Virus record (IMG/VR): IMGVR_UViG_3300035701_000048
Span: 1-50,460 of that record
DNA length: 50,460 nucleotides
Direction: 5' to 3' (one strand)
Source of the DNA: a virus
A program made the position numbers and the translations under genes. Each line of letters opens with the position of its first letter. The stretch's first letter is position 1. Below, one piece after another: positions 14,675 to 43,300 of the stretch. The notes beneath the pieces were generated by a model. The model did not search any database and was not told where the DNA came from. It saw only the letters and a list, made by a program, of their open reading frames with translations.

Positions 14675-15160
14675 ATGTGGGTAATGGCTCATTTTACACT
14701 GAGCGGCGTCCCCGCTACTGGATTATCTCCTTTAGTTACAGTGGTGGATATAGACAGCGGTGTCACCGTTGTTAGTAGTGGCACGATGGTTGACAAAAAT
14801 GGAGGATTTTATGGGTATGATTTTGCGGCATATGATGTCACTAAAAATTATACCTTTACTTGTGACAGTGTCACTTTAAGTGGTACCGAGAGATATAATT
14901 TCGCTACTAGTGGTGAATACGGTACTATTTTAGATGATATTCATGACACTGTAGATGTGGTAGATGTAAGAACCTTATTACTTAAGAAAATACAGACAAA
15001 TGCGCTAAAATTAAATGATGGTGATACTGGAAACTGGACTTTGTATGCTGACAATGGAAGTGATCCTCTATTAACTTTTAATGTTCGGGATAAAGCTGGT
15101 GATCTGATAATCCAGCAGGTACATGTTCCTTCACAAAGATCAAAGGCTATAGAATACTGA
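14675..15160 (+). CDS. Hypothetical neck-region virion protein
   Basis: The 161-aa protein starts after AAAGGAGG. It has a beta-rich N-terminal domain (A-H-F-T-L-S-G-V-P-A-T-G-L-S-P-L-V-T-V, D-K-N-G-G-F-Y-G-Y-D-F). A predicted helix near residues 90-110 (D-D-I-H-D-T-V-D-V-V-D-V-R-T-L-L-L-K-K) and a second beta unit follow. Small Ig-like plus helix modules of this kind are common next to connector genes. Its TGA overlaps the ATG of the inserted endonuclease gene. Confidence 0.7.
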   Translation: MWVMAHFTLSGVPATGLSPLVTVVDIDSGVTVVSSGTMVDKNGGFYGYDFAAYDVTKNYTFTCDSVTLSGTERYNFATSGEYGTILDDIHDTVDVVDVRTLLLKKIQTNALKLNDGDTGNWTLYADNGSDPLLTFNVRDKAGDLIIQQVHVPSQRSKAIEY

Positions 15161-16059
15161 TGAAACGATTAAATTTAGTGGGTAATAAGTATGGAAGACT
15201 GACTGTTTTGGGGTTTGCTTATGTAAAGCAAGGCAACGCTTGTTGGTATTGTAGATGTGAATGTGGTAATGAGATTATAGCTTTGGGATGTAATTTACGT
15301 TCTGGAAATACGACTAGTTGTAGTTGTTATAATAAAGAAATAGCCAATAAATCACGTAGATTGGATTTAGTTGGGCAAAGATTTGGTAGGTTGATGGTAA
15401 TAAGTAGATGTAAGCACGAAAGCCGACTTGGAAAATTTATTTGTAAATGTGATTGTGGTAATATAGTGCATGTGTCTATTGATCACTTACGTGCTGGTCA
15501 TACTAAAAGTTGTGGCTGCTATAATAAAGAGGTTGCTAGTGCTAGAGTTAAATCAAATCTCATAGGTATAAGATTTAATAGGTTGTTGGTTATAGCTGAA
15601 CATGGAAAAAACAAATATGGTATGATTAGATGGCTGTGTTTATGTGATTGTGGATCAGAGGTGGTTGTTGCTACTAATAATTTGACTGGTGGGCATACTG
15701 GAAGCTGTGGGTGTTATATGCGAGACCGAGCTTCAGAAGCTAATTCCGGTGCTAATGGCCCACATTGGAAAGGAGGCATTTCTTGTAATCCTTATTGTGC
15801 TGTTTGGAGAGACGAAGAATATAAAACTGATATCAAAATAAGAGATGGAAACACATGTCAAAATCCAAATTGTACGAAAACACACAATAAATTAGTTGTG
15901 CATCACATTGATTATAACAAAATGGATTGTAGCCCTGGTAATTTGATTACTTTATGTGTTTCTTGTAATATTAAAGCCAATACAAATAGGCTTGCATGGA
16001 AAGATTTTTATAAATCTGTGCTTAATAGTAGAGAAATTAAAAATGTCAATCATAACTAG
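15160..16059 (+). CDS. HNH homing endonuclease with three zinc-binding repeats
   Basis: The 299-aa protein has three tandem units (about 6-60, 70-124 and 134-189). Each has the pattern L-[VI]-G-x-[RK]-[FY]-x-R-L, then C-x-C-x-C-G and a closing S-C-x-C-Y. These repeats bind zinc and DNA in many phage homing enzymes. The HNH nuclease follows: C233 and C238, H248-H249, N261, C266 and C269. It cuts DNA to promote its own spread. The start overlaps the upstream TGA, and the end runs 17 bases into the next gene, so it is inserted exactly between two neck genes. No intron is visible. Confidence 0.92.
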   Translation: MKRLNLVGNKYGRLTVLGFAYVKQGNACWYCRCECGNEIIALGCNLRSGNTTSCSCYNKEIANKSRRLDLVGQRFGRLMVISRCKHESRLGKFICKCDCGNIVHVSIDHLRAGHTKSCGCYNKEVASARVKSNLIGIRFNRLLVIAEHGKNKYGMIRWLCLCDCGSEVVVATNNLTGGHTGSCGCYMRDRASEANSGANGPHWKGGISCNPYCAVWRDEEYKTDIKIRDGNTCQNPNCTKTHNKLVVHHIDYNKMDCSPGNLITLCVSCNIKANTNRLAWKDFYKSVLNSREIKNVNHN

Positions 16060-22243: not shown

Positions 22244-22304
22244 TCCCACCTAAATTGGCAAGGAAAGGTCTTCTAATTTTATTGCTTGAGCTATTCACCA
22301 TTTT

Positions 22305-22310
22305 GGGAGG
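22305..22310 (+). promoter_or_regulatory. Ribosome binding site fixing the tape-measure TTG start
   Basis: GGGAGG lies eight bases before the TTG at 22319. The in-frame TTG at 22286 has no such site, so 22319 is the better start. Confidence 0.7.
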
Positions 22311-22318
22311 ACTTTAGC

Positions 22319-25300
22319 TTGCCACCAACCGATACCTACAAGATTCAAATTGAATCGATCAAAAATTCAGAAGCGGATCAGCCTACAAAAAATTTAGCTG
22401 AGAAAGTAACTCGCCTAGCTAGTGCTATGGAAAAACTGGAATCGGTAATGGAGAAGGTTGCCCCTATGATGGGCGACACTGGTAGAAGTGCGCTCGACAC
22501 CATCAGAACTGTTACTGGAATAGCTCAGTCCGTTGAAAGGGTTTCTAATAAGATTCAAGATACGGTTCAAGATTTGGATAATGAGATAAAAGGAATGAAA
22601 CGCGATGTTCCTTTAGCCATTTCTCAAGCTAAACAAACCGGTCAAATCGCTATTCAAGCCGCTCGGGATTTTCCTTATGGTAAAGCCATTTTAGATGCTA
22701 TTAAAGATCTTGCTAACACTTATAGACAATCACAAACTTCTCCAACTTATGCGACAGGTAGAGACGAGGTTCTTTCTAGTATATCAAATTTAGTGCGAGA
22801 ATTTGTTAAAAGAGATCGTGATGTTGGTAATATATTAGAAGCTTTGAAAAGCATGACTCAAGCTATGGGTATGGGTAAAATCGGTGCTCCAGCAGGTCAA
22901 CCGGCACTCGCACTCCCATCCACAATCATTGATATTAAAGATTTTAAAGTCGTAACACAAGAAAATATCAGTGCGCCTATTAAAGAACTTACTACAGCTT
23001 TAAAAAGAGTCGAAACCAACACTCAAGGAGAAATAAGTAAAGGTACTAAAATAGATAATAAAGGAATAACTGATGTTCTTAATGCGTTGGTAACGGCTGC
23101 TAGACAGTTAAAAACTGAAACCCCAGAAAAAACTGGAAACATTTCGGAACTTACAAGCGCTATAAAAGAATTAACTGTTATTGTTAAACAACTGCCTGCT
23201 GATGCTCTCCAAACAAGGGACGTTATTTTAAAACAGGTTAAATCGGCTTTAGCCGATACTACCATACCTACTAAACCACATGTGGAAGCCGTAGCCCCAC
23301 AAGCGCAATCTTATGTAGTCGCTCCTACTACAACTAAAATTCATGGTGATGTTGATTTTCTAGGCCAAGCACTTAAAAACATGGGCGTAGAGTTCGAGAA
23401 AATAAAATCCGAACTAAAAGATAAAATTGTAGTCGCCATAGATTTAGAAACTTCACAAATGAAAGACGCTGGTAAAAAAGATACACTCGGTAACGTACTA
23501 AAAACAGCCGATATTATAACTCAAATTGCTACTTTAAAAGGCACACTAGATCAAATACGTTCTGGAACTGCTACTAAGCAAAACATATATGTTAAACCTC
23601 CAGAAGGTATAAATACAGAAAAAGCCTATAACGACCTTATTGGAACTGTCGGTGAAGCCAAAATTGAATTGGGTAAATTATTATCTGAGGGTGTTAATGC
23701 AAAAGACGCTATGTCTTCGTTGGCGGAAACATTAAAAGACGCTGATGCTATAGTAGGACATAACATAGCTGGATTTGATCTTAATGTTATAAACGACCAG
23801 TTTAAAAAACTTGGGATGGACGTTAATCTATCTTTAAAAAAATATGTTGATACTGTGGATTTATCGAGATCGAATTTTCCAAATAGAATGGTCAGTTCTA
23901 TTACTGGTAAAAGGCTTGATACATCGCAACCTCATGCTTTACCACAGATAGAGGGAGACTTATCGTTGGCTGGCCACAAATTTGCAGGTGCAATGCACGA
24001 AGCTTCGCATGATGTTGAAGTGATAGGCCCACTTTTGAATGCTTTTGAAGAAGGCACAAAAGAATATAATGCTATGATGAAAAACAATACCGCGCAGATG
24101 AATGCAATTACTGCTGCATCTAGAGCGGCTGCTGGGCATTTCAAAGAAATAGGTGACACTTCTGCTAGATTAAGTCAATCTATGGCTGCTGCATCTGATA
24201 TTACTGATGAAATGATACAGGGTGGAGCGGATTATAATAGTAAACTTCGAAACGCAACTAGAAGTATCAGTGCTATGGAAGTTATGGGCGATCCAGTTAA
24301 AATGCGCTCCGCTTTACAAGCTATTCAATTCAAAGAGCAGGTTATTCACCCATCAAGTAGACCAGAAAATTTTGGATTTGCCGGGCCGGAAGGATCTACA
24401 AAAGATCAAGCTACTCTTTCTTATCTATCTGGTCTTTCAGAATCATTAAATAAATTACAAACCGGAATTGTAGAAGCTCTTGAACGTGGAATGACCAAAG
24501 GTGTTCAGATTCTTAAGACTAAGGGTGAATCTTTTCAATTAGCCCCAGGCGGTAGAGAATGGGAACTAAAAATTGCAGATGTAAGAGAACTACGAAAAGC
24601 AGTAACTGAAACATATCATAAATATTCCGCTCCAGGTTCATCAGCCGAAGAATTGGTGGATAGTTATAAAAAGGCTTTTGTTGAACGCCGCTTATCTACT
24701 CCAGTTCCAGCCTCTGAAATGGCAGCTTCAGTAGTAACAACAATAAGAGGTCTGACTAAAGAGCAGGCCAGTTCTCTCGGAGAAGATGTAAAAAATATTT
24801 TCGACAAAATACAACAAAGAAGTATAACAACCGAAGATGTTGAAAGTAACGCCGGATTGTATGGACTTTATAAAAACGTATCTCTTAAATTAGAATCTGA
24901 AAAGTCTGTAGAAGGATATATGAAGCGTTTGGCTATTCCTGCTGCGCGTGTGTCACAACAAGGTATTCCTATTTTAGAAACCAAGTATGGAGCAGAAAAA
25001 GGATTAGCTAATTTTGCTACTATTACCACAGGTTTAGAGAAGTTAATCGAAGAGTTGAAATTATTAAATACTCCGCAGATGGATGTTGAGAGATACAGCA
25101 GACAACTTTCTAATATTCCTTTACGACCGGCAACCGGATCTACTGGAGAAGCCGCTGCTGCAAAATTGGCGGAAGAGTTGCTTAGTGAAGTATCTGGTCG
25201 AGGCGGTACTAAACTTATTAGTGGCGGTTATGCTTCAGCCGCTACACTTAAAGAAGTAGATCGTGGCACCCCTCTTGAAGAAGCTCGTACCAAAGTCATG

Positions 25301-28300
25301 GGCTATGGCGCGAAAGGACTGGAGTCTTTAATAGAAGAATCTGGTAAATTGGGTGTCACAGCGCTTGATGTAGCTAAAGCTTTAAGTGAAATAAAACTTG
25401 ATAATTTCTACGATATGCTAAATCAGCTTCTTCAAGCTGGTAAAGTACCGTATTTAGAAAAACAAGCAGCGAATATTCATAAGTTTGATAGAAATCTTCG
25501 AGAAGTGTCGGGTGTAATTAACGATGTTATGGGCTTGATGCCTATGATAGAACCCGGTCGTCCACTAAGAAAGCCGTATGATGCGGCATCCTTGAGAGTA
25601 TTGACTAAGCCAACGGAAGAGTTGCGCCCAGCCGATGCTAAGTCTCACATAGTAGAAGCTAATTTACTTTGGAAAGATATGGCTGAAAACTCTAAAAAAT
25701 TGGGCGAAACCATGATTCAGGGCAAAGAATACATGGGGCAACCGATTGCGTCTTCGTTGGATTTAAGTGATGCTGCTAGTTCAGAATTAAAGCAATTTAA
25801 TCTTGAGTTTGGAAGTCGTTTACAATCTATAGATAAAACTATGATTGGAATGAATACGTCTGATTTACGTGGGTTATCTCCATTCAAGGATTTTAGTTCT
25901 ATTCAAAGACAGGTATCTTATATTACTAGTGGATTAACTGGTGGTATTCCTGGCGGCGGAAAATTTGAAACACCGTCTCTAGTAAGTGAACGTGAACGTA
26001 AATCCATTGAATCGGGTCAGTTTGGTACCGAAGGTTATGGTCTTAATGTTTTAACTGAAATAAGAAATACCGCTGGTACTTTTGAAGACCAAATCATGAT
26101 TGCTGGAAAGTTAGCCAAAGCATTTACGAATATAGTCCAAAGATTAGTAGAGCCTGGCACTAAAGTAGACATAACAGAGATTGAATCCGGAACTCAGAGA
26201 GTATCGTCACGCGCAAGAGATGAATTAAATAAACAAGTAGGCGATGTAGCAAAAGAATTTCAGACTATTTTAGGAGTTCCGGAGAGATATAGAGGTCGCG
26301 CTGATGTGGCTGAAATAGGTAAAGAAGTTGAGACGGTGATGAGAGAGCACCGTGGACAGACAATTGATGTTCAAACTGCTAAGTTAACAGAGACTTTCTT
26401 AGATTATTTTGGTAGAAAATTAGCCACTCGTTTTGGAACAAAGGGAGTTTCTATAACACCAGAAACAGCTCCTACTGAATTTAGAGAATATCAAGAGCTT
26501 GCTAAACTAATGGCCAGTGGAATGAAAGCTAAAATTGTTCCAGGCGAAGGGCTTGGCTATGCTCCTGTACCTAAGAGCGCCGGAACTTTGGTTTCTGAAA
26601 TGTTGTCAGACGCTTTTAAAGGATTACATACAGCCGAAGCCCCAAAAGAATTACACGATAAGTTAATTGAATCGGGTAATAAATTTATATCGGACTTATT
26701 TAAAGACACAAGATTAGTATCCGAAGATGAGGCCAAAAAGCAAACAGAATTATATGAACGAGTTAATAAAATTTGGACTGAAAAATTTGGCGAAGAGCTT
26801 CCTACAGGACCTTCTGGGATTAAAAAAATACGAAAATTATATGAGACTAATGAAACGTCTGCCGAGAACGGTATAATAGAAGAGGGCGAGTCGAGATCTG
26901 CTTATACAATGCAGCCTATAGAGGCTAGAATTAGTGCTCGTGGTATAGCAAAAAGAGGATTAATGCCAGAAGTTTTAGAGGCTATAATTAATAATTTAAT
27001 TGGAAGTAGGTCTGGAACTACTACCATTAAAGATACCATCGATGAGAAAGTTTTGACTGGAAGTAAAGAAGGACTTGCTACTATAAATGAATATTTAAGT
27101 AATTTAGGTTATGAAAAATTTACTGATATAGGTGAAATGGTTAAGAGACTTAAATCAGAAAATCCTAAACTTACTGATGCAGACATTGATAAATTAAAGG
27201 AATATGAATCTAATTGGTCAGTTTATACCACTATTTTAGATGAGTTTGGTAAAAAAACACAGGCTTTAGTTGCTCCTAAATTTTTACAAATAATAGAAGA
27301 GCCTCATCTGTTTGGTGAATGGACTCCACGCGAATTGGATAAAGGTGTTAAGGGTGCCAAATTAGATTATCAATCTTTCTCTGCATATGCTGGAATTTTT
27401 GGTGAAGGATCATCAATGCTTAAAGAATTAGCTGGATCCACTTCTTTGAATTCTAAAGAAGGGTGGGAATTAATTAGGGCATTCCAATTGATGGATCCGA
27501 CAATGAAGAATTTGAAGGAAAGTATTCTAGAGGGTTTACCTAAAATAGAGCTTTCAGACATTACTGAAAAATTCGAGGGCGCTACTGGAACAGTAAAAGA
27601 ATTAAAAGATACCATTCTAGATATAGCTAAATTTCCAACAGCTATGTCTCTTAAAATACCTGGTGCTAAGTCTGGAACTTATGATCAGATGTACGTTCCA
27701 GGACCAGCTCTTCGTGGAACATACCAAGAAGATTTGATGGGTAGAGCAGCTCCTACAAACGTTGCACGTTATTTAGCAAATCTAATAAATTCTGCAAAAG
27801 ATGTGGAAGAACTGACTGGCGCAGCTGCCAAAGGAAATATAGGATTAGGTGAGGAATTCCAAACCAAATTTGCTTCCACGCTTAAAGCCGAGTTAGTTAA
27901 AGCTCTTACTGATTTAATGAACAGATTTAAAGATATGGAAAAAGCACCTACTCCACAAAATATTGCTTTTATGGAAGAGATGATCAAGAAGTATAAGGGC
28001 GGTTTATCTACTGAACGCCCGGTGTCTCCTATTTATCAAGAGGGGCTTGGAACATCGGAAGCGGAAGCGTTTGAGGCGTTTGCTGGTAAAACCAAAGGTC
28101 CTAAAAAATATAGTACTACTATGGGCAGGCTTTCTGATTTGTTGATTGGCGCCGATCCTGAATCTCTTAGACGAGAAGAAGCTCGTATTAAATCGGCAAC
28201 AAAAACTTATGAAGAAAGTGGTAAAAAGCGAATTCCTTATGAGGTACTTTCAGAATCAGAGAAGGGGCGTTTAGAAAGCGGCACCGGTTTTGAAACCATG

Positions 28301-31300
28301 ATGCAGCAACATTTACGTAGAACTCAAGAGCGTGGTAAAGCTAAGTCTATATTTGAAGTGGAATTAGAAGCTTATAATCTTGATGCTTTTACTAAAAAAA
28401 TTGGAATGAGTCTCCAACAATCAGTTGAAGAAGCATTAACTACAAAGATGGAGTCTTTAAGCCGCGCTAAAGTGGCTTATGCTGAAGCGTTAGGCGAAGA
28501 AGTTTTTGGAAAGAAGAAAGGAATTGAGCAAACATTTTTTCAAAGAGTGACTCCAGCTGTTACAGGTAAAGCTGTTTCAGCTGTTACTGATAAAACCGAA
28601 GAGTTAATGACTCTTTTAACAGTGCTTAAAGATAATGAAATAGCAGGTTTAGAAGGACTGTCGGGTAGTTTAACAAAAATTATAGCGGGTCATAGCGAGT
28701 ACGTAGCTAAATCTAAACAATTAGGACTTCCAGTATTAAAGGAAGGTGAGATTGGTCTGCCTGGCGAAATGGCTAGAAAGGTCCCAGTAGAGGGAGGAAA
28801 TCTAGCTGATCTAATTAAGAAGCAACAAGAAACTTATGTAGAATCTATTAGATATCCTTTTACTGGAACGTTGAGTGTTCAACCACACAAAGCTAAATTG
28901 ATGGAAGACATTCTTCCTGAAGGCGGCAAGTACGGTAAATACTCAATTGCAGTTCCAGGCGCGCCTCAGCTTGATTTGCCAGAACTAAAGAAAATAATTG
29001 ATACTCTAAGAGAGTATATTGGTGTAGAGCCTAAAAAGAATTTGCCTAGTAATGTAGTTCCTTTGATGGAGCAGCGCGAAAAAGCTTGGGCTGAAAATAC
29101 AGATGCTGGTGCTCAGAAAGTCGCTGAGTTGACTAAAAATATAGAACAACTTCTCGCAGTAGTTGATAAGGCATCTCCAAAATTTATAGACATGGAGCAA
29201 AAACTAGATTTTGATGGTGATGCTTTGTTTGTACATACAGGGCAATTAGAAAAATCAAGAGAAGAAATTAAAAAACATTATGATATGTTAGGATCTGATG
29301 TTACGGCTGTTAGAAATCTTTTTCGATCGGTGTTTTCAGCTGTGAAAGACACAGATGTAGCAAGTTTATCAGAGATGTCTCAGGTTTTTGCTAAGAAACA
29401 TCCAAAAGCGAAGGGTTTTGAATTTCTTACCAAGCCCTATGTGACAGAAGGCGCAGAGAATCTTTCGATGCCAGAAGTTATAAAAGCTTTGCAAGAATAT
29501 TCTCCTGAAGCTGCTGGAAAGAAACCTCAAGAGTGGATGACCAAGAATTTAACATCTAATGTGATGCCACAAGTATTTGGTCGTTTAGGTGTTCCGGAAG
29601 GCGAAAGGCCTGGCTATCTTACTAACATGAAAGTAAGTGAGGAAGGATTACCAACTGTTGGTGGAGAAGGGCAGTTTGTAAAACGTATTAATGAGTTAAC
29701 CGAAGAATTATTAAGACGACAATTAGTTGAGAAGAAATATAGTGATGCTATTGAAGGGCAGCTTTTTAAATTACATACAGGTATTACAGTAGAAGGCATT
29801 AGTAGAATTGCTAGAATGACGGAGTTAGAAACAGGTTTTGGCCCTGGTTTAGCTAAAACTGGTTCAGGCGGGCCTCCGTCAAAAGAATTTTTGTCTAGAT
29901 GGCCTACAGAGAGTATGGCTCTTGATAAAAAACCCGCTGAAGCGTTTGCTGTACGAATAAATGAGATGCTTAGATTTGTGATTCAAAAAGGCATGGATGT
30001 AAAGCACGCTGGTGTTGAAGCAGTAGGCCAGAAAATAATTGAAAATCTCAATAAAGCTACTGGTGCTCAGAAAATTAAAGAAGCAATGTCCAGTATGAGC
30101 GAGCAGTTTGGTGAACTTGCAGATTTCAATGCACAAATCTCAAACGAAGTTAGATTGAGAGTAGGTAAACTTTCTACTCCACAGTTGAAAGAAGAACTTA
30201 AATTATTTGAGCCGGACATAGACGCCGCTAAATTATCTAATGATCGTGAAGAATTAATTAAAGGAATTATAAGTCATGTGGATATGAATGCGGTGTTTGA
30301 AGAGATATTCAAACAAATTCAATCCAACGCTATTAAAGGATACACTGAGCAGTTGGATAAACAACTTAGAGACATGCCGGCTGGTCCTTCTAAAGTAGCT
30401 TTATTGCGACAAGTTTCTGCCGCTGGTTCAAATGAAACAGTAGCTAGACAAAAAATAAAAGAAGAGTCCGAAACACCCGAAGGTATTAGTGTTTTAAAGT
30501 ATATAACCACACCACTAAGCCCGCTATATAAAATGCGGACTTCTATGGAAACTATAGGCACAGCAGCGCGCCGATCTGATGTAAAACTTCCAGAAGAAGA
30601 TTTAGGCTTACCAGCTACCGAAGAGGGTAAAAGATTAGCTAAAACGTTTGATGAAGTAAGGAAAGCAGCGAATACTCTGACTTCTGGGTTGGAAACTTCG
30701 GTTAGAGTTCCTACCAGAGGCGTGCATACGATGATGGTAGAGAGTGCGATAGAGAAGCGATACAAAGATCTTAAAGATCTGCTTGAGTTTTCTAAAGCGT
30801 CTAGTGAAAGTCCGACTAGTTTTCCGTATGCTTTTGCTGGAATATCCGATACCAGCAAAATGGCGTCTAAAACCTGGAGTGAATCGATGGGTGCAGCTGG
30901 AGTTTCTGGAGCTGGTTTGGTTCCCCCAGGAGAAATGGATATTACTTCTTGGATAGACCAGTTATTGAAAGCTAAAAAAATTGCGGAAGAAAAACTTGAG
31001 GAGTTGTCAGAAAAAGCAGGTCTTCCACAGATTTTACCTGAGGAACAAGCATTAATTGGATATGAATTTGAAAAACAGCACGGCAAACAGATGTCTGCTA
31101 ATGTTAGAGACTATGTTCAAAGAGGAGCTGCAGCTAAAGGTACTACGCTTTCCGAACAAGATTTACAAGCTCAAACAAATGAAATTTATCAAACCGCATT
31201 GGATGTTACTAAATTCCAAGCTACCATAGTGGAACAGTTCAGACGAATAGATGAAATGATAAAGACTGTTCCTGTTCAAATGGCCTACCTACGTGAAGCC

Positions 31301-34300
31301 TTTCCAGCTTTTGGATTGGATAAATCTACTCAAACAGCTGCACAATCTATACAAGAAGCTGCAGCGGATCACAGAACAACGTCAGAAAAAATCGAAGAGT
31401 ATTGGCAGAAGCAACGTGGAGTTTCTAAAGAAGCTGGTAAAGTTGTAGAAAACTCTATTAAAGGAATTGGAGAATCGCAAGCTGCTGGGCAAGATTTTTC
31501 TGGTGGGCTAAGAACTCCATCCGGAGTTTCTCAAGCCATAGACAAAGCCGATTTGGAACGAAAGCGCCGATCATTGCAGTATTTAGAAACAGTGGCTAAA
31601 GGTGGCGAAACATCAACTAAACTAGGCTTTGTTTCTGCTAGTCAGATCCACGCTGGTGGAGCTTATGGTGGTGGAACCCAAGAAGAAGCTATTACTAAAG
31701 CAATGGGTGGGGAAGACGCTGGAACCTTTGCTGAAGCTACTGCTTTTAGAGGTGGGGCTCTTCATAGACAGATCCAAGCCGAGTACGTTAAAAAATACCC
31801 AGGAACTAAAATTGAACAGTATGTAGAAGATGTAGAAAACAAAATAAGCGGTCACTTTGACATTCTTTACGAAGAAGCTGGCCAAAAAATATTAACTGAT
31901 ATTAAAACTATTTATAGCACGGCTGTTTTTGATCGCCTAAAAGAATTGTCAAGCGAAATAGAAAATCGCAAAATAACTGTACAAGAAAAATTAGAGGAAT
32001 TAAAATCTAATAAATCTATGTCTGATTTTGATAAAGATATAGTTAGACGACTAGAAGATTATTTAAGTCAAGTAAATGTTTACTTAAAGCATGTTGAAGG
32101 CGCCACAGGAAAAATTTTAGGCGTAAGTCAATTTAATACAGCTGAAAGATTTGAAATTCCAGTAGGTAAGTTTGATCCTGCTAGATTTGAAAAAGATTTG
32201 TCTGTGGTAAATAAAGCAAGAGGTGGAGTTCCTACTGGAACAGTTGCTACCGAAACCGCGCCTCAAGCTAGTGCGGCGGAAATTCTTAATAGGATGAATC
32301 CAGAGCAGCAAGATCGCTATGATAAATTAAGCAAATCATATATGGAAGATATTAGACGAGCACAAGAGCAAGGCTTGTTTAATAAAGGTGAACAGTGGTT
32401 TGCTACAGGCGGCGCTGGAGGAACCGAAAGTAAACGACATATTTTAGCTCCGGGTGAAGTTCCTAGTTTTAAAGGGACATTAATGGGTGCTGGTGGGGCT
32501 GGGGTTGGTGGAATGCCCCCAATTCCTCCAACTGGTGGTGGTGGCGGTGGAGATGATGATGATTTCTATAAGAAATTAAAAGAACTTCTTGATGGATTAA
32601 ATAAAAGAATTAAAAATGTTAATGAAATTCAAGTAGAAGAGATTGTTAAATTAGTTGAATACTATGAACAAGCGGGGATAGCAGCTGACGCTGCGCGTCA
32701 ATCTGGAAATGAAGATTTAGCTGGTTCTTTCGATGTAATACGTAAAGAAATCGAAGCTCTGATGACAAGTAAAGGCCAAGCCCTAGATTCTGCTAAGAAA
32801 ATAGCGGATTATTATAAACAATTAAATCAGTCCCTATCTGCCAGTGCTGGTGCTGGTGGGCCTTCTGATTTTGGTAGATTAGGAATGCCGCAGATTGAAA
32901 GAAACGCGCCAGAGAGGCCGGAAGCTAAACACCAAAACTTACGTGCCATGTGGGAGTCTTCGGTTAAGTACTATAAATTGGCGGACACTACGGAATTAAA
33001 CAAATTTCCTGGTGGTATTAGCGATATAATTAAATCTACTGCTGAACAAGGTCCTACACCAGACATAACTAAACAAATAAGAGAAGCCATTGCTGGTCTT
33101 CCTGAAGGACAACAAGGTGGAATGCGTAGAATTTGGATGTTCTACAAGAAGGCAGTGGGAGAATACTATCTAAAGCGCTTAGATGAACTAAAGCAAACCA
33201 TAGAAGAAGAAGGCGATTCTTCTAAGGCGCGACAAGCTTACGCGGAATACGAACAAGTAGTTGATAAGTACATAAAGAATATTGAATCTACTTTAACTAA
33301 GATGAGCGACATTTATACTAAAGTTGGTCCATCTGGAGTTAAGGGGGAATGGGTAGAACCTGATTTAGCTAAACTTACTGGTATGTATGAAGACCCCAAA
33401 AAATTAGCTGACCGTATTAAACATGATTATAAAATGAAGGCTAATGTACAACCTCTTATGGATACAATGGTTGGGGATTTGGATGCCACCAAGTTGGATC
33501 AGATGGCAACGCCTATAGATAAAGTAAGAGAAGCTTTTAGACAGATAACTGCGGAAAAGGCTGATATTAAGCCTTTGCTTGCTGATCTAGAAACTTTTAA
33601 ACGTCTAGGTCCTGAAGCGGTGCAAGCTTGGGATTTTAGTAAAATTTCTCAGGATGTGACCGAACTTAGAGCTGGTATGCAAGCGTTCCATAGATTGAAT
33701 TTGTCTGGTTATGGTGGATTGGGTGAGGGATATACTGAAGTAGTTCGTAAAAATGTTGAAGACACAATTAAATTATTGAAGCAACTAGAAAACTCCGTAT
33801 CTTCAGGTAATTTAAAAGCTTCAGAGTATAAACTGACTCCGGTTCCTCAATTTTTAGACACCGAATCGCAGAGATTGCTACATCGTAGAAATGTTGTACA
33901 ATTGCGTGAGACTTTTAGAACACCTACAGAAGCTGGTGGGCCACAACCAGGAGCAGCAATTAATTATAAAATGCGCATCATTGACCCCGCTTCAAAACAA
34001 GAAATAGAAAATGTTCGCGTGGAGTTTAATAAATTAGGTGAATCGGCAACTACAGCTGGAGTTAAGATTGGACTGTTCTCAGAACGATATGAGAACATGC
34101 TTACTAATTTCCAGGACAGAAGAGGAATAGGTCAAGCTTTTGAACGTGTTATCAGATGGGGTCTCGCTAGTAATGTAGTTTATGGTTTAACTGGCGCGCT
34201 AAATGACATGATACAGACCATATCTGATACAGAACTTGGAATGGCTAAGTTACGCCAAGTTATGAGCCCATTAGAAACCGATTTTACTAAACTTCAAAAT

Positions 34301-37300
34301 TCTGCTGTGCAGTTTGCTAAAGAGTATGGAACATCGGTTAATAAAGTATTAGAAGGTATGATTGTTTATGCTCAACAAGGTATAAATCAAAGAGAAGTTG
34401 TGGATAGAACTCAAACTTCTATGATGGCCGCTAATGTAACAACATTAAATGCTGCGGATGCTACCGAAGCTTTAACGGCTGCCATGATGAATTATGGTAA
34501 AGAAGGCGAGACAGCCATGAGATTTTTGGATTCATGGACGGAAGTTGAAGCTAGACATGCTGTTACTTCGAAAGATTTAGCTGATGCTTTAAGACGTACT
34601 GGTGCTGTTGCTAAGACTGTGGGTGTTACTTTCGATCAGTTAAATGGTATAACAACTGCCATCGGAGAAACAACCAGATTTACTGGAGCAGAAATTGGAA
34701 CCGCTGAACGATATATTTTTAGAAGATTAGAAACGGGAAAAGGACCAGCAGAATTATCCAAGGTAGGTATTGGTATTACTAGTAAAACAGGTGACTTGAG
34801 AAGTGCTTTTGATATTTTAGGCGATTTAGCTGGAGCTTGGGACAAATTAACAAATTCTCAGCAACTAAATATTGCTGCCGCTATAGGTGGTTTGCGTCAT
34901 TTTAACTCATTAATTGTTTTAATGGAGAATTGGAATGAAGCTTTAATTGCAACTCAGCAAAGCATGGATTCTAAAGGCGCCGCAGAAAGACGAAATGCCA
35001 TTGTAATGGATACGTATGCTAAGAAAATTGAGCAGGTAAAAGCAGCTGTTTCCGAATTACAAATTCAATTTGGTAGTGCTTTCTTACCGGTTGCTAAAAC
35101 TTTCTTAGATGCCGTTCGTTCTATAGTTGAAGCTTTTAGTAATATTCCACCATGGGTTAAAGCTACTGGCGCAGTACTTGGCGGCTTCTTTGTAATGTTG
35201 GCCAAGGGAAAGGATATTTTAGATTACTTTCATGGAATGTTTGGTGGGTTTGGGTCATCTGTAAAAGACGCTATTTCCACAGCAGTCCTTGAATGGAAGA
35301 AAGGTTTATTTGAAATTTCTGGATTTAAGTCTCCTGGATTAAATATTACTGGGCTAAAGAAAGTCACTGAAGTAGGCCACGTTTCTGAATTAGACACAAT
35401 GATGGGCAAGTTGGTTTATAAGATAGCTCCTATTGGTAGAGCGTGGAATAGTGTGCTTACAGATGTATTTAAAGGCGCTAGTACTGTCACTGACAAATTA
35501 GCTGATATGTTTGATTATATTGCTGGTAGTTCTTTTAAATTAAAAGGTGCTTTGAGTTTGACTGGTGTCGGATCATTTCTTGGTGCTGGTCTAGCAGGAT
35601 TTGGGGCTGTTTCAGATGTAGCGGCCTATGGATTGGATAAAATTTCTCAACTTTTAGGAATGACTGCGCAGCAAACTGCTAAATGGACGCAAGAAAACAC
35701 CGGTCTTTTAGCTACTTTTGGTCCATTGATAGGATCGTTTATTATTTTGGAACCTTTGCTTGCTAAACTATGGAATGGAATAAAACGATCGGCTATGTCT
35801 TCTAAGGATTATCAAGTTTCATTGGCGGATACTAGACGACAACAATCTGATCAACTTAGTGCTATAAGAGAATTAGCTTCGGGATATGATATATTAGAGA
35901 AACGATTGAAAAACGCTCAGAGAATGGGTGATCCTAAAGTTGCAAAAAAAGCCATGGATGAAGGTACTTATAAATCACCTACTAGGGAAATTGGAAATAT
36001 ATTAGAAGCTACTGTTGAATATAGTAATAAGTTGGCTGATAGTAATGATAAACTAGTTTTAAGTTATGATAAGTTTGGTAATGCTGCTCTTAAAGGTGCT
36101 GACAGTCTTAAAACTTTTATTAAGGTAGCGGAGACTTCCAAAATAGGTGAAATGTTCAGCACAGATTTAGATATTTTGAAAAAACATCTAGAAGATCTTA
36201 CAGATGTTGGTTTTGGTGAAAAACTTAAGCGTGAACTAAAACGATTTTTAAATGAGATTCCGGGATTTGGTCCTCAGATGGCAAAAATGATACATGTTTC
36301 ACCTGCCAAAATGTTAGAAGAAGAGACTGGTAATATAGATAAATTACTTTCTGCCAGAGCTCGATATCCCATGACCACAGCTTTTGATAAGACTATAAAA
36401 GAACGATCAGAATCATTAAAAAAGTCTAGAGATGAATTTCAAGATACGTATAAAGAGTTTAAGAAAATTTTAGCTGAACTTCCTACAAAGGGTTTAAGTA
36501 GTGGGCAAATTCAAGGAGCTCTTACATCGCCGGAACTACAAGAAGGCTATAAATTAATGGCTCAAATGGAGCCAAGACTTAGAGTTACCCCAGAAAGTAA
36601 TAAGACGGAACGTATTCCTGGATTTTGGAGCAATTTGATTAAGGGTGCAACAGGGCATGATATTGCTGCTAGACAAAAAGTACAATGGCAAGATGTTATG
36701 GGCATAGAAGTAATGAAGCGTTTAAATCCTGATCAGCCGTTTGATTATACTAAAAAATTAACGCAGGGATTGTTTATGCAATCTGGGGTGCAACCAAGAA
36801 AAGTGGGAGACACAGTATTTTCAGGAGAACGTGTTTTCTTTAGTGATAAAATAGCTGAGAAGTATAAAATAGCTGCTAACCAAGGTATTTTGAAAATAAC
36901 AGAAACTGCTAATGGTTTTATGGAAAGATCGGTAGAAGTTTTTGATACGGCGTTAAATAAGATGCGAAAACTTCCTTATGGGGCTGTGTCCAAATATGTT
37001 GAAAATATTTTTCCAATTAAGGCTATTCAGGAAGATTTATCTGAAAATTTAGAAGCTATGAAGGAAATGGTAGTTGGGGCAGAGGCTGGACTTGTAGGGC
37101 TAACGGGCAAACAGTTTAAGAAAGATTTTCCTTTGGGGGCAAGGTTTTTTAGTCAGATACCCACGAGTACTCTTATTCAGAGTACCAAAGGATACCAACC
37201 TGGAACAGGGTATGGGGAAATTCCATTTAAACAAGATTGGCCTAAATTTTTAGAAGAGTCTTTTATTAAACCAATGCACACTTATAAGCTAATGACTGAC

Positions 37301-40300: not shown

Positions 40301-43300
40301 GAGCAGCAACCAGAAGAGGACAAGTTGAATCGACAACAGTCGGCTGCGGAACAAACTCGTCAAATGCTATTGGAGGCTCAAAGAAATATAAATCTTCTTC
40401 CTGAGAGTGAGACTAAGATAAAAGGATTGGCTGAAGTAGAGGAGTTGGTTAATTATCTAGAAAATCAGTTATACAATAGTGGGTTTAAACGTACAGTAGC
40501 AGATGAGTATTCAGGAGTTACAAGAGAAGAATACCTTGGTGTTAGTTTAAGTGGATTTGAAACACGAATTAAAAATATAATATCTAAATTTGGCCCAATA
40601 GACGCGAAGACATTGACAGAGCTTGAGAAACAAACTGGTATATTAACCAATATAGAAGACGTTTTGAGAAAGGCTTACAATATACCAAAAGAAATATCAT
40701 CACCTATTTTTCCATATCAAAGCTCTAATATGGAATCATTTAAAGGAGCGGATTATACTGTTAACGATCGAGATGAAGCTTTACGGAAGAAGATCAGTGA
40801 AAGTATGCCATCTGAGGCTAGATTTATTGGTAGGGAAGCTAGTGCTAGACGTGGTGGCAAATCGTTGGGTGAAGAAATAGAGCAAGGTTCACAAGCTTTT
40901 GTTGATTTTGGTTCACTAATTAAAAGGAAGTGGAATGAATTGGGTGTATATTTAAACGCTCCTAATGCGGACGAACCTCCTATACGAGTTTTAACTTTTC
41001 AGGATGAACTCGACAAAGCTGGGGCAGCTATAACCGAATTTAGCAACATTGTGTGGGAAAAGGGAGGTAATGCGATAAAGACTGTTTTAGAATATTTTGC
41101 GCAACCCGATCTTATACCTCCGCAATGGCGCAATAATTATGGCGATGATTATGTAGCACCAGAGGGGCAACAAACAGGCGGCCAGATTGTTGGCCCTGGT
41201 GGTCCTACAGATGATGTAATTCCTATAATGGCTAGTTCTGGGGAATATGTTATTAAAGCAGCCTCTGCTAAAAGATTAGGTAAAAACGCATTGAATTATA
41301 TTAATACCACTGGTCAACTACCTAGACTCGCTGGCGGCGGAGATCTTGATTATTTTTATAACCCAGAAAATCAATTTGATGAAAGCGGCTATTTTCCAAA
41401 ATCGGAACAGGGAGCAGCTAAATCACAAGGGACTTCCTTTGTTGACACCTGGTCTAGAATTTTAGGAAAAGCCGGAGCTGGTGTTGGTGAATTTGCTGGT
41501 AATATTACTGATTATTGGTCAGGTAAAAGCCCAGATAATTTCTTACTTCCGAATATGTCTATGTGGACTAAGGAAGAAGAAATGGATTATGCTAGACAAA
41601 ATCCTAATAAATATGCTCTTACCGCAACTGCTGCTAGTTTTATGCCAATGGCAAAATATGCTTATTCACCCACCGATGTGGAAGAATTTAATGCATCTAG
41701 CAGAGGCTCGAAATTATTGTCTATAATGTCAGAGACTCCTGGTAAAATAATGGGTGGGGGTAAAGCAGCTGCCAATTTGGGAAAACTAGGCCAAGGAGTG
41801 GGAAAACTAGGCCAAGTTGTAGGAAAGGGCGCTAAAGAAACATATGAATTGGGACAAAATTTTGGCGTTCAATCTGCTTTGAATGTCTCAGGTAAAGTGA
41901 TTAAAATAATGGATTTTATTGGTGTAGGTGATCCCGCATTATTAAAAAGCAAATTAGCTACTAGAGCAGCGGAGTCATTGGAAGACTATTTTTATAAAGT
42001 TGTTGATAAGGTTGGTATAAAGGCTTTATTTGATAAAAATATGTTTGGTTACATGTTTTTTGATTCTAAAAATGTGTCTGCTTCCAAGAAAGCAGTGAAA
42101 GATGCCATTGATCAGATAGCTGAATTTACAAAGTATGTAGATCCGCATGACATTAATTTTAAAAAATTCTCAGTAGGTACTAGTGAATTTCTAGGGGATT
42201 ATTCACAAAAAACTGGTACAATAAGATTAGGTATGCAGTCTTTACTTAACCCATTACAGACAGTAAAAGATTATGCAGCTAGCACTGTTAAGAAGTCATC
42301 ACCATGGCATCCATTTACACCACGGGCTACGGACGTATTTAAATCCACCATGTCGCATGAGTTGGGGCATGGATTTACTAAGCCAGGTCCTGGTGCACAT
42401 GTTTCTGGTTCAGCTGAGAAAATGGTTGGTTTGGGTAAAAATACGTATGAAACTACGCAAAAATACTTGGATACACAAACAACAAAAGCTGTGTCTGGTA
42501 CTGGTAGATTTAAACGGCTTAAAGACGTTTATGATTTTTATTCGCAATATGAAAATGAAGCTCGTGCCATAAAAGAAGTGAAGGATAGCATAGCTGAGTT
42601 GACGCCTAAAGTGTCTAGCCGTTATGGATTAACAAATGTGGATGAAAAGGTAGCTACTTTAATAGAAGGGGCAATGCACACACCCATGAAATATGCATTG
42701 CCTGATGTTAAACAGGCGAAAAAATTACTTGGTATTCAATATGCTGAAGGCGGTTCAGTTATGCCTTCGGAATTAGTAGCTTATGTAAATAAGATTATGG
42801 CTCAGAAAAAGTCTGGTAAACTTATGGTAGGGAATTTGGTAGCTAAACAAGACGCTTCTGGTAAATGGACTTTTAGTAATGCCAATAGAATAGACGAATT
42901 AACGAGAGCTACCACAGAAGGTCGTCGTGATCCTTGGGAATTAATGAGTTCAGCAGCACCTTTTGGTTTAACTGGACCATCCGATATATCTAAACTTGGG
43001 CCAGCTAATGCGGCTGAATTTGCTCAGTCTGGTAGATATGCTTCTGTTGGTGAAGGTGATAATAAAGTGTTTGCTTTTAGAGACGATAAAGGCCAGTGGG
43101 TATTAAGTAATGTAGGAGATAGCATACATAAATATGGTCCGGCATCCTACGCTCAAGGCACGTCTTATGTTCCTAATACTCAATTAGCTATGTTACATAA
43201 AGGTGAGGCGGTTATTCCGGCTAAATTCAATCAAGGCGGTCAGGTTGGAAATGTTATAGATACAGCTGATATGGCTGACATAGGTACGCAAATTAGTGAT

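Follow-up and report, generated by a model that had tools for sequence, protein, structure and literature searches.

The window (the whole stretch of DNA analysed, 50,460 bases of a single virus record of the IMG/VR type) is occupied for 43% of its length by one ORF on the + strand, 22286-43762, which is without an internal stop across 7,158-7,161 codons. The frame was identified as a tape measure by the Pfam model PhageMin_Tail (6e-31) and by PHROG 4211, tape measure (1e-83), both in the same frame as the exonuclease described below, and its GC content is even along the gene, at 36-39%. The start is likely the TTG at 22319 rather than the first TTG at 22286, since the N-terminus and the ribosome-binding site are conserved and GGAGGACT lies just upstream. 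A GGAGG-type site precedes the aligned TTG in six relatives (L034-L039), being GGGGG-like in L037 and L038. Counted from this start, the features of the gene, all on the + strand, are as follows:

22306-22313, +: Shine-Dalgarno site GGAGGACT for the TTG start, read directly
22319-43762, +: giant tape measure ORF, an open frame of 7,147 aa with a TTG start, containing all the domains below
23348-24115, +: DEDDh (DnaQ-type) 3'-5' exonuclease domain, about aa 344-599, by family profile; activity predicted
23432-24022, +: Pfam RNase_T core of the exonuclease, aa 372-568
23441-23449, +: motif ExoI, D375-L-E377 (DxE), both acidic residues invariant in 7/7 carriers
23756-23779, +: motif ExoII, GHNIAGFD487, D487 invariant in 7/7 carriers
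23996-24013, +: motif ExoIII, H560-x4-D565, H560 and D565 invariant in 7/7 carriers
24434-30625 (limits approximate), +: two-barrel (DPBB) RNA polymerase-like region, about aa 706-2769, a conserved family block
26411-26446, +: barrel-B signature GRKLATRFGTKG (RpoB 1063: GDKMAGRHGNKG), top HHalign match to E. coli RpoB
29207-29221, +: barrel-A metal-binding signature DFDGD (RpoC 460), top HHalign match to RpoC
29984-30013, +: QKGMDVKHAG, candidate bridge-helix/trigger-loop motif, near-invariant in the family and assigned by analogy
31598-32257, +: PD-(D/E)XK nuclease (RecB/Cas4-like), aa 3,094-3,313, by its catalytic motif set
34298-34891, +: tape measure core (PhageMin_Tail), aa 3,994-4,191, Pfam match
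42356-42370, +: HELGH zinc-protease-like motif near the tape measure C-terminus, motif only

HExGH motifs are also present in some relatives of the giant tape measure, and the tape measure protein (TMP) of Thermus phage P23-45 has a metallopeptidase annotation. Elsewhere in the window, genes for a deoxynucleotide monophosphate kinase (PF21448) and an HD-domain protein (680-1324 and 1827-2396) lie upstream of the packaging genes and hint at altered nucleotide metabolism, and an HNH endonuclease gene (PHROG 374; 15160-16059), probably a homing endonuclease, is found upstream of the tape measure, between genes for structural proteins.

According to the initial annotation, a DEDDh exonuclease lies near the N-terminus of the tape measure and is complete, its five catalytic residues standing in canonical motifs. 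With the TTG at 22319 as start, the residue numbers given there are exact, the codons of D375, E377, D487, H560 and D565 beginning at 23441, 23447, 23777, 23996 and 24011. ExoII fits the DEDDh pattern (G/N)H-N-x(3-4)-F-D, and the H-x4-D spacing of the third motif is that of the 'h' form, not of DEDDy (Y-x3-D). Pfam RNase_T scored 30.9 bits in the isolated domain (curated cut-off, 24 bits), PHROG 403 'DNA polymerase exonuclease subunit' matched with an E-value of 2.4e-11, and the DnaQ, PolC and DinG models of NCBIfam matched below their equivalog cut-offs. E-values obtained from the single window sequence are modest, and the weight of the identification lies in the family-level comparison. HHalign aligned the exonuclease family with 19 stand-alone phage DnaQ-like exonucleases over 181 columns covering all DEDDh motifs (probability 98.4%, E 4.7e-15), and a reversed-alignment control of this comparison gave no match. 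Searched against the PDB, the family profile matched entries named 'exodeoxyribonuclease III' (TREX-like, 3e-5), DnaQ (8e-5), RNase T (9e-5) and PolC (1e-3), and one member of the family matched the PolC model at 6e-13.

Relatives of the giant protein were found solely through alignments of the tape measure core and the RNA polymerase-like region, by which 37 viral contigs with the same protein were gathered; viral records were treated as possible fragments, and complete frames reach up to 7,600-8,050 aa. Six independent contigs (L034-L039) carry an exonuclease in the corresponding position (blastp 4e-61 to 1e-24), with 31-44% identity to that of the window. Six of the resulting seven carrier records have it in one open frame (ORFs of 6,910-7,532 aa), and the frame of the seventh ends at the contig end. 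The initial annotation had named missing catalytic residues in relatives as an outcome that would speak against its reading; this was checked, and all five were found to be kept in 7/7 carriers, although only 21 of the 243 model columns are invariant (chance, ~3e-6). The DT and R positions typical of the DEDDh family are kept as well, and the exonuclease core forms an island of conservation, with a mean pairwise identity of 40% compared with 22% before and 21% after it, rising to 43% at the start of the domain that follows. The domain sits inside a structural protein and its activity is predicted from sequence, as would suit a fold retained for a structural or nucleic-acid-binding role with no enzyme function; we consider this improbable, given that the five metal-binding and general-base residues are invariant at such low overall identity.

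A chance match or an assembly artefact, for which the modest Pfam score of the single sequence (28.5 bits) might be quoted, deserves almost no credence in view of the seven independent contigs, the HHalign E-value and its clean reversed control. A chimeric assembly is ruled out by the uniform GC together with the presence of the exonuclease in seven independent records. By these comparisons, the exonuclease inside the tape measure is confirmed as real, and it is a DnaQ-type DEDDh domain whose predicted active-site residues are intact and which shares an open frame with the polymerase-like and tape measure parts.

The exonuclease profile matched 7 of 35 virus records (window included), only inside the tape measure, and gave no match in any of the 28 other giant tape measure records. 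In a tree of the adjacent domain, built by maximum likelihood from 30 rows, a branch with 100/100 support separates the seven carriers, and on this tree the presence of the exonuclease needs one change, compared with 6.4 when the labels are shuffled. The tree is unrooted and is compatible with one possible gain of the exonuclease or one possible loss in the sister group; by either course the domain, as traced on the tree, is inherited as one clade. Because most relatives with the same RNA polymerase do without the exonuclease, its distribution marks it as accessory. Two candidates for a wider occurrence were rejected: a weak BLAST match between the exonuclease and the C-terminal part of L008, L014 and L017, in a sequence without DEDDh motifs, and hidden exonucleases in the relatives lacking one, for which a Pfam scan of 20 N-termini gave scattered weak matches and the exonuclease profile none. 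A search of viral contigs with the exonuclease alone as query returned no match, and neither did a tblastn search of cultured phages with the N-terminal parts. The ORFs examined around other exonuclease matches were never longer than 640 aa, so that the fusion to a tape measure is so far confined to the carrier clade.

Three further records among the relatives deserve mention. The giant frame of L003/L059 (contig 3300009702_000031) has only 2,524 aa and begins within the polymerase region, as in a split gene or a sequencing frameshift; that of L068 (contig 3300005264_000830) stops after 4,534 aa within the locus, well short of the other relatives. L151 (QNDS01000020.1), a relative of the polymerase region, comes from a Candidatus Fermentibacteria MAG from Guaymas and may be a hint at the host or a binning error.

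Downstream of the exonuclease, aa ~706-2,769 form the best conserved stretch of the enzymatic half. The motif LD[F/Y]DGD is present in the window and in 16/16 relatives fetched via the tape measure core alone, and was thus not selected for by the way in which these relatives were found. The barrel-B pattern G-x-K-x3-R-x-G-x-K-G (GRK-x-x-TR-x-G-x-KG) occurs in 29 of 30 members and coincides with RpoB 1063-1075. The best local HHalign matches fall exactly at 1063 in RpoB (GDKMAGRHGNKG) and exactly at 460 in RpoC (DFDGDQMAVH), neither being significant alone, and barrel B lies upstream of barrel A, which is the N-to-C order of single-chain two-barrel RNA polymerases. HMMER and HHalign searches against solved RNA polymerases and P23-45 gp96 gave no significant whole-domain match; against the PDB, HMMER returned chance or coiled-coil matches only, and against gp96, HHalign aligned only ~10 columns around LDFDGD, with no significant profile similarity beyond them. 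Such a result has a precedent, as many RNA polymerase families of this type have no significant mutual similarity outside the DxDxD region (PMC10770324). What had been annotated as a polymerase-like domain can thus be sharpened at the level of motifs: given both barrel motifs and their order, it is very probable that the region represents a two-barrel RNA polymerase, and probable that it is related in kind to the TMP-fused virion RNA polymerase of P23-45. The family of 7,000-8,000-aa tape measures with such a fused region (L002-L017, L034-L070) comprises dozens of environmental phage contigs and is apparently undescribed.

A second nuclease lies between the polymerase-like region and the tape measure core, its motif being present in most, not all, relatives. 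The PD-(D/E)XK set (H, E, D, D/E-x-K) is invariant in 13/13 aligned members; PF12705 was matched at 3e-5 in this region of the relatives, not from the window sequence alone, and PDB 4ic1 at 4e-4.

We compared this architecture with known systems. Among the closest is long-tailed Thermus phage P23-45, whose gp96 is the precedent for a virion RNA polymerase fused to a tape measure (PMC10770324): as predicted for the window, a giant tape measure has a two-barrel RNA polymerase bearing DFDGD in its N-terminal part, followed by tape measure parts and a metallopeptidase. Unlike the window protein, gp96 has 5,002 aa, and PMC10770324 mentions no exonuclease or nuclease. The P23-45 enzyme transcribes pre-early genes, as proposed during DNA entry (PMC10770324). 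That paper also cites crAss-like phi14:2 gp66 and the N4 virion RNA polymerase as polymerases that are fused with large, host-delivered virion proteins. Unlike the window protein, these two are not tape measures of long-tailed phages. The N4 enzyme, moreover, has a different polymerase fold. The tape measure core is 26-31% identical to those of cultured Bacillus (including SPbeta-like), Lactococcus, Staphylococcus and Brevibacillus phages; in five such tape measures, which unlike that of the window have no enzymatic N-terminal part, the core begins ~330-740 aa into the protein, compared with ~3,960 aa in the window, suggesting that ~3,200 residues, mostly enzymatic, were added N-terminally here.

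The closest relatives found for the exonuclease are stand-alone phage DnaQ-like proteins (PHROG 403; for example L075 and L078), which have the same domain with all motifs but, in the loci seen, are separate proteins of ~215 aa without fusion to a virion protein. DnaQ epsilon, the PolC exonuclease, TREX and RNase T share with the window domain the DEDDh residues, the H-x4-D and the DT...R spacing; in contrast to it they are cellular and cytoplasmic, and the exonuclease of PolC is fused to a DNA polymerase, not to an RNA polymerase and a tape measure.

The position of the exonuclease bears on what it may act on. In phage 80-alpha, the TMP is a trimer with its N-termini immediately beneath the DNA end and its C-termini at the tail tip (PMC11661146). 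By analogy, the exonuclease, which precedes the probable fused virion RNA polymerase in the N-terminal part of this giant siphophage tape measure, would sit at the end nearest the head. Because the tape measure would enter the host ahead of the DNA, the two enzymes would reach the leading genome end together and would act beside it before phage gene expression, the exonuclease removing 3'-terminal nucleotides at that end. We infer that it is an active 3'-5' enzyme delivered in this way with the RNA polymerase, and we consider it probable that an intact exonuclease, carried at the head-proximal end of the tape measure ahead of the virion RNA polymerase and delivered together with it, would trim 3' ends. 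As for which 3' ends these are, the leading phage DNA end and the nascent end of the virion RNA polymerase transcript appear about equally likely as substrates, with somewhat lower odds for nucleic acid of the host or an oligonucleotide related to defence.

If the substrate is DNA, the exonuclease may trim or resect the 3' strand of the leading genome end during its passage along the tape measure, perhaps so that the RNA polymerase can be loaded or the genome circularised. The orientation of the 80-alpha N-termini towards the DNA end, the presence of the PD-(D/E)XK nuclease within the same protein and the fact that the nearest named exonuclease families (PolC, DnaQ and DinG) act on DNA are in line with this possibility, though these families do not fix the substrate and the phage records are treated as fragments. 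Such end processing is conceivable but, taken by itself, doubtful.

Alternatively, the exonuclease may serve the fused virion RNA polymerase by clearing RNA 3' ends that are misincorporated or backtracked, and would thus proofread or trim transcripts. In proofreading DNA polymerases, the exonuclease domain is likewise N-terminal to the polymerase, and in 7/7 carriers the exonuclease is immediately N-terminal to the RNA polymerase-like region; the PolC match of one family member points in the same direction. However, ~100-120 poorly conserved residues separate the two, the polymerase active-site residues show no clade-specific change, and at least 28 relatives have the same RNA polymerase without the exonuclease, so that this polymerase does not generally require proofreading. 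Service to the polymerase is thus a possibility to be held with the same reserve as genome-end processing.

A further candidate, that the domain replaces the phage's own proofreading exonuclease, was judged unlikely: the largest carrier contig (G020, 150 kb) has its own family A DNA polymerase, so that the tape measure exonuclease is not needed to explain proofreading in its replication. No other RNase_T exonuclease was found in that contig, and the carriers yielded no DNA polymerase of other families (PolC/DnaE, B).

The patchy, clade-restricted presence of the domain is typical of accessory conflict genes and could reflect host takeover or counter-defence, in which the delivered exonuclease would destroy the DNA or RNA of the host or else a short nucleotide with which a defence system signals; DEDDh enzymes do include oligonucleotide-degrading members. 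Against this, no defence or counter-defence neighbour was identified, and the copies per virion, few if the 80-alpha trimer is a guide, would be too few for bulk host degradation. We regard this role as unlikely.

Among open-access papers, seen in part, none was found that describes an exonuclease within a tape measure, which is not proof of absence; the combination of an exonuclease ahead of a probable built-in RNA polymerase within such a protein seems to have no earlier description. Tape measures have long been viewed as rulers and channels, and P23-45 showed that an RNA polymerase can be aboard. In the present family of ~7,000-8,000-aa tape measures, which spans dozens of environmental phages, the N-terminal part can unite several enzymes in one module: an exonuclease, a probable RNA polymerase and a PD-(D/E)XK nuclease. 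This raises the testable question of enzymatic work on nucleic acid during the first moments of entry, before phage gene expression. That the module includes a virion-delivered, single-chain RNA polymerase with a built-in 3'-5' exonuclease acting on the nascent transcript, injected with the tail, is a tentative and rather unlikely proposal; if true, it would be a proofreading or trimming RNA polymerase in a single chain.
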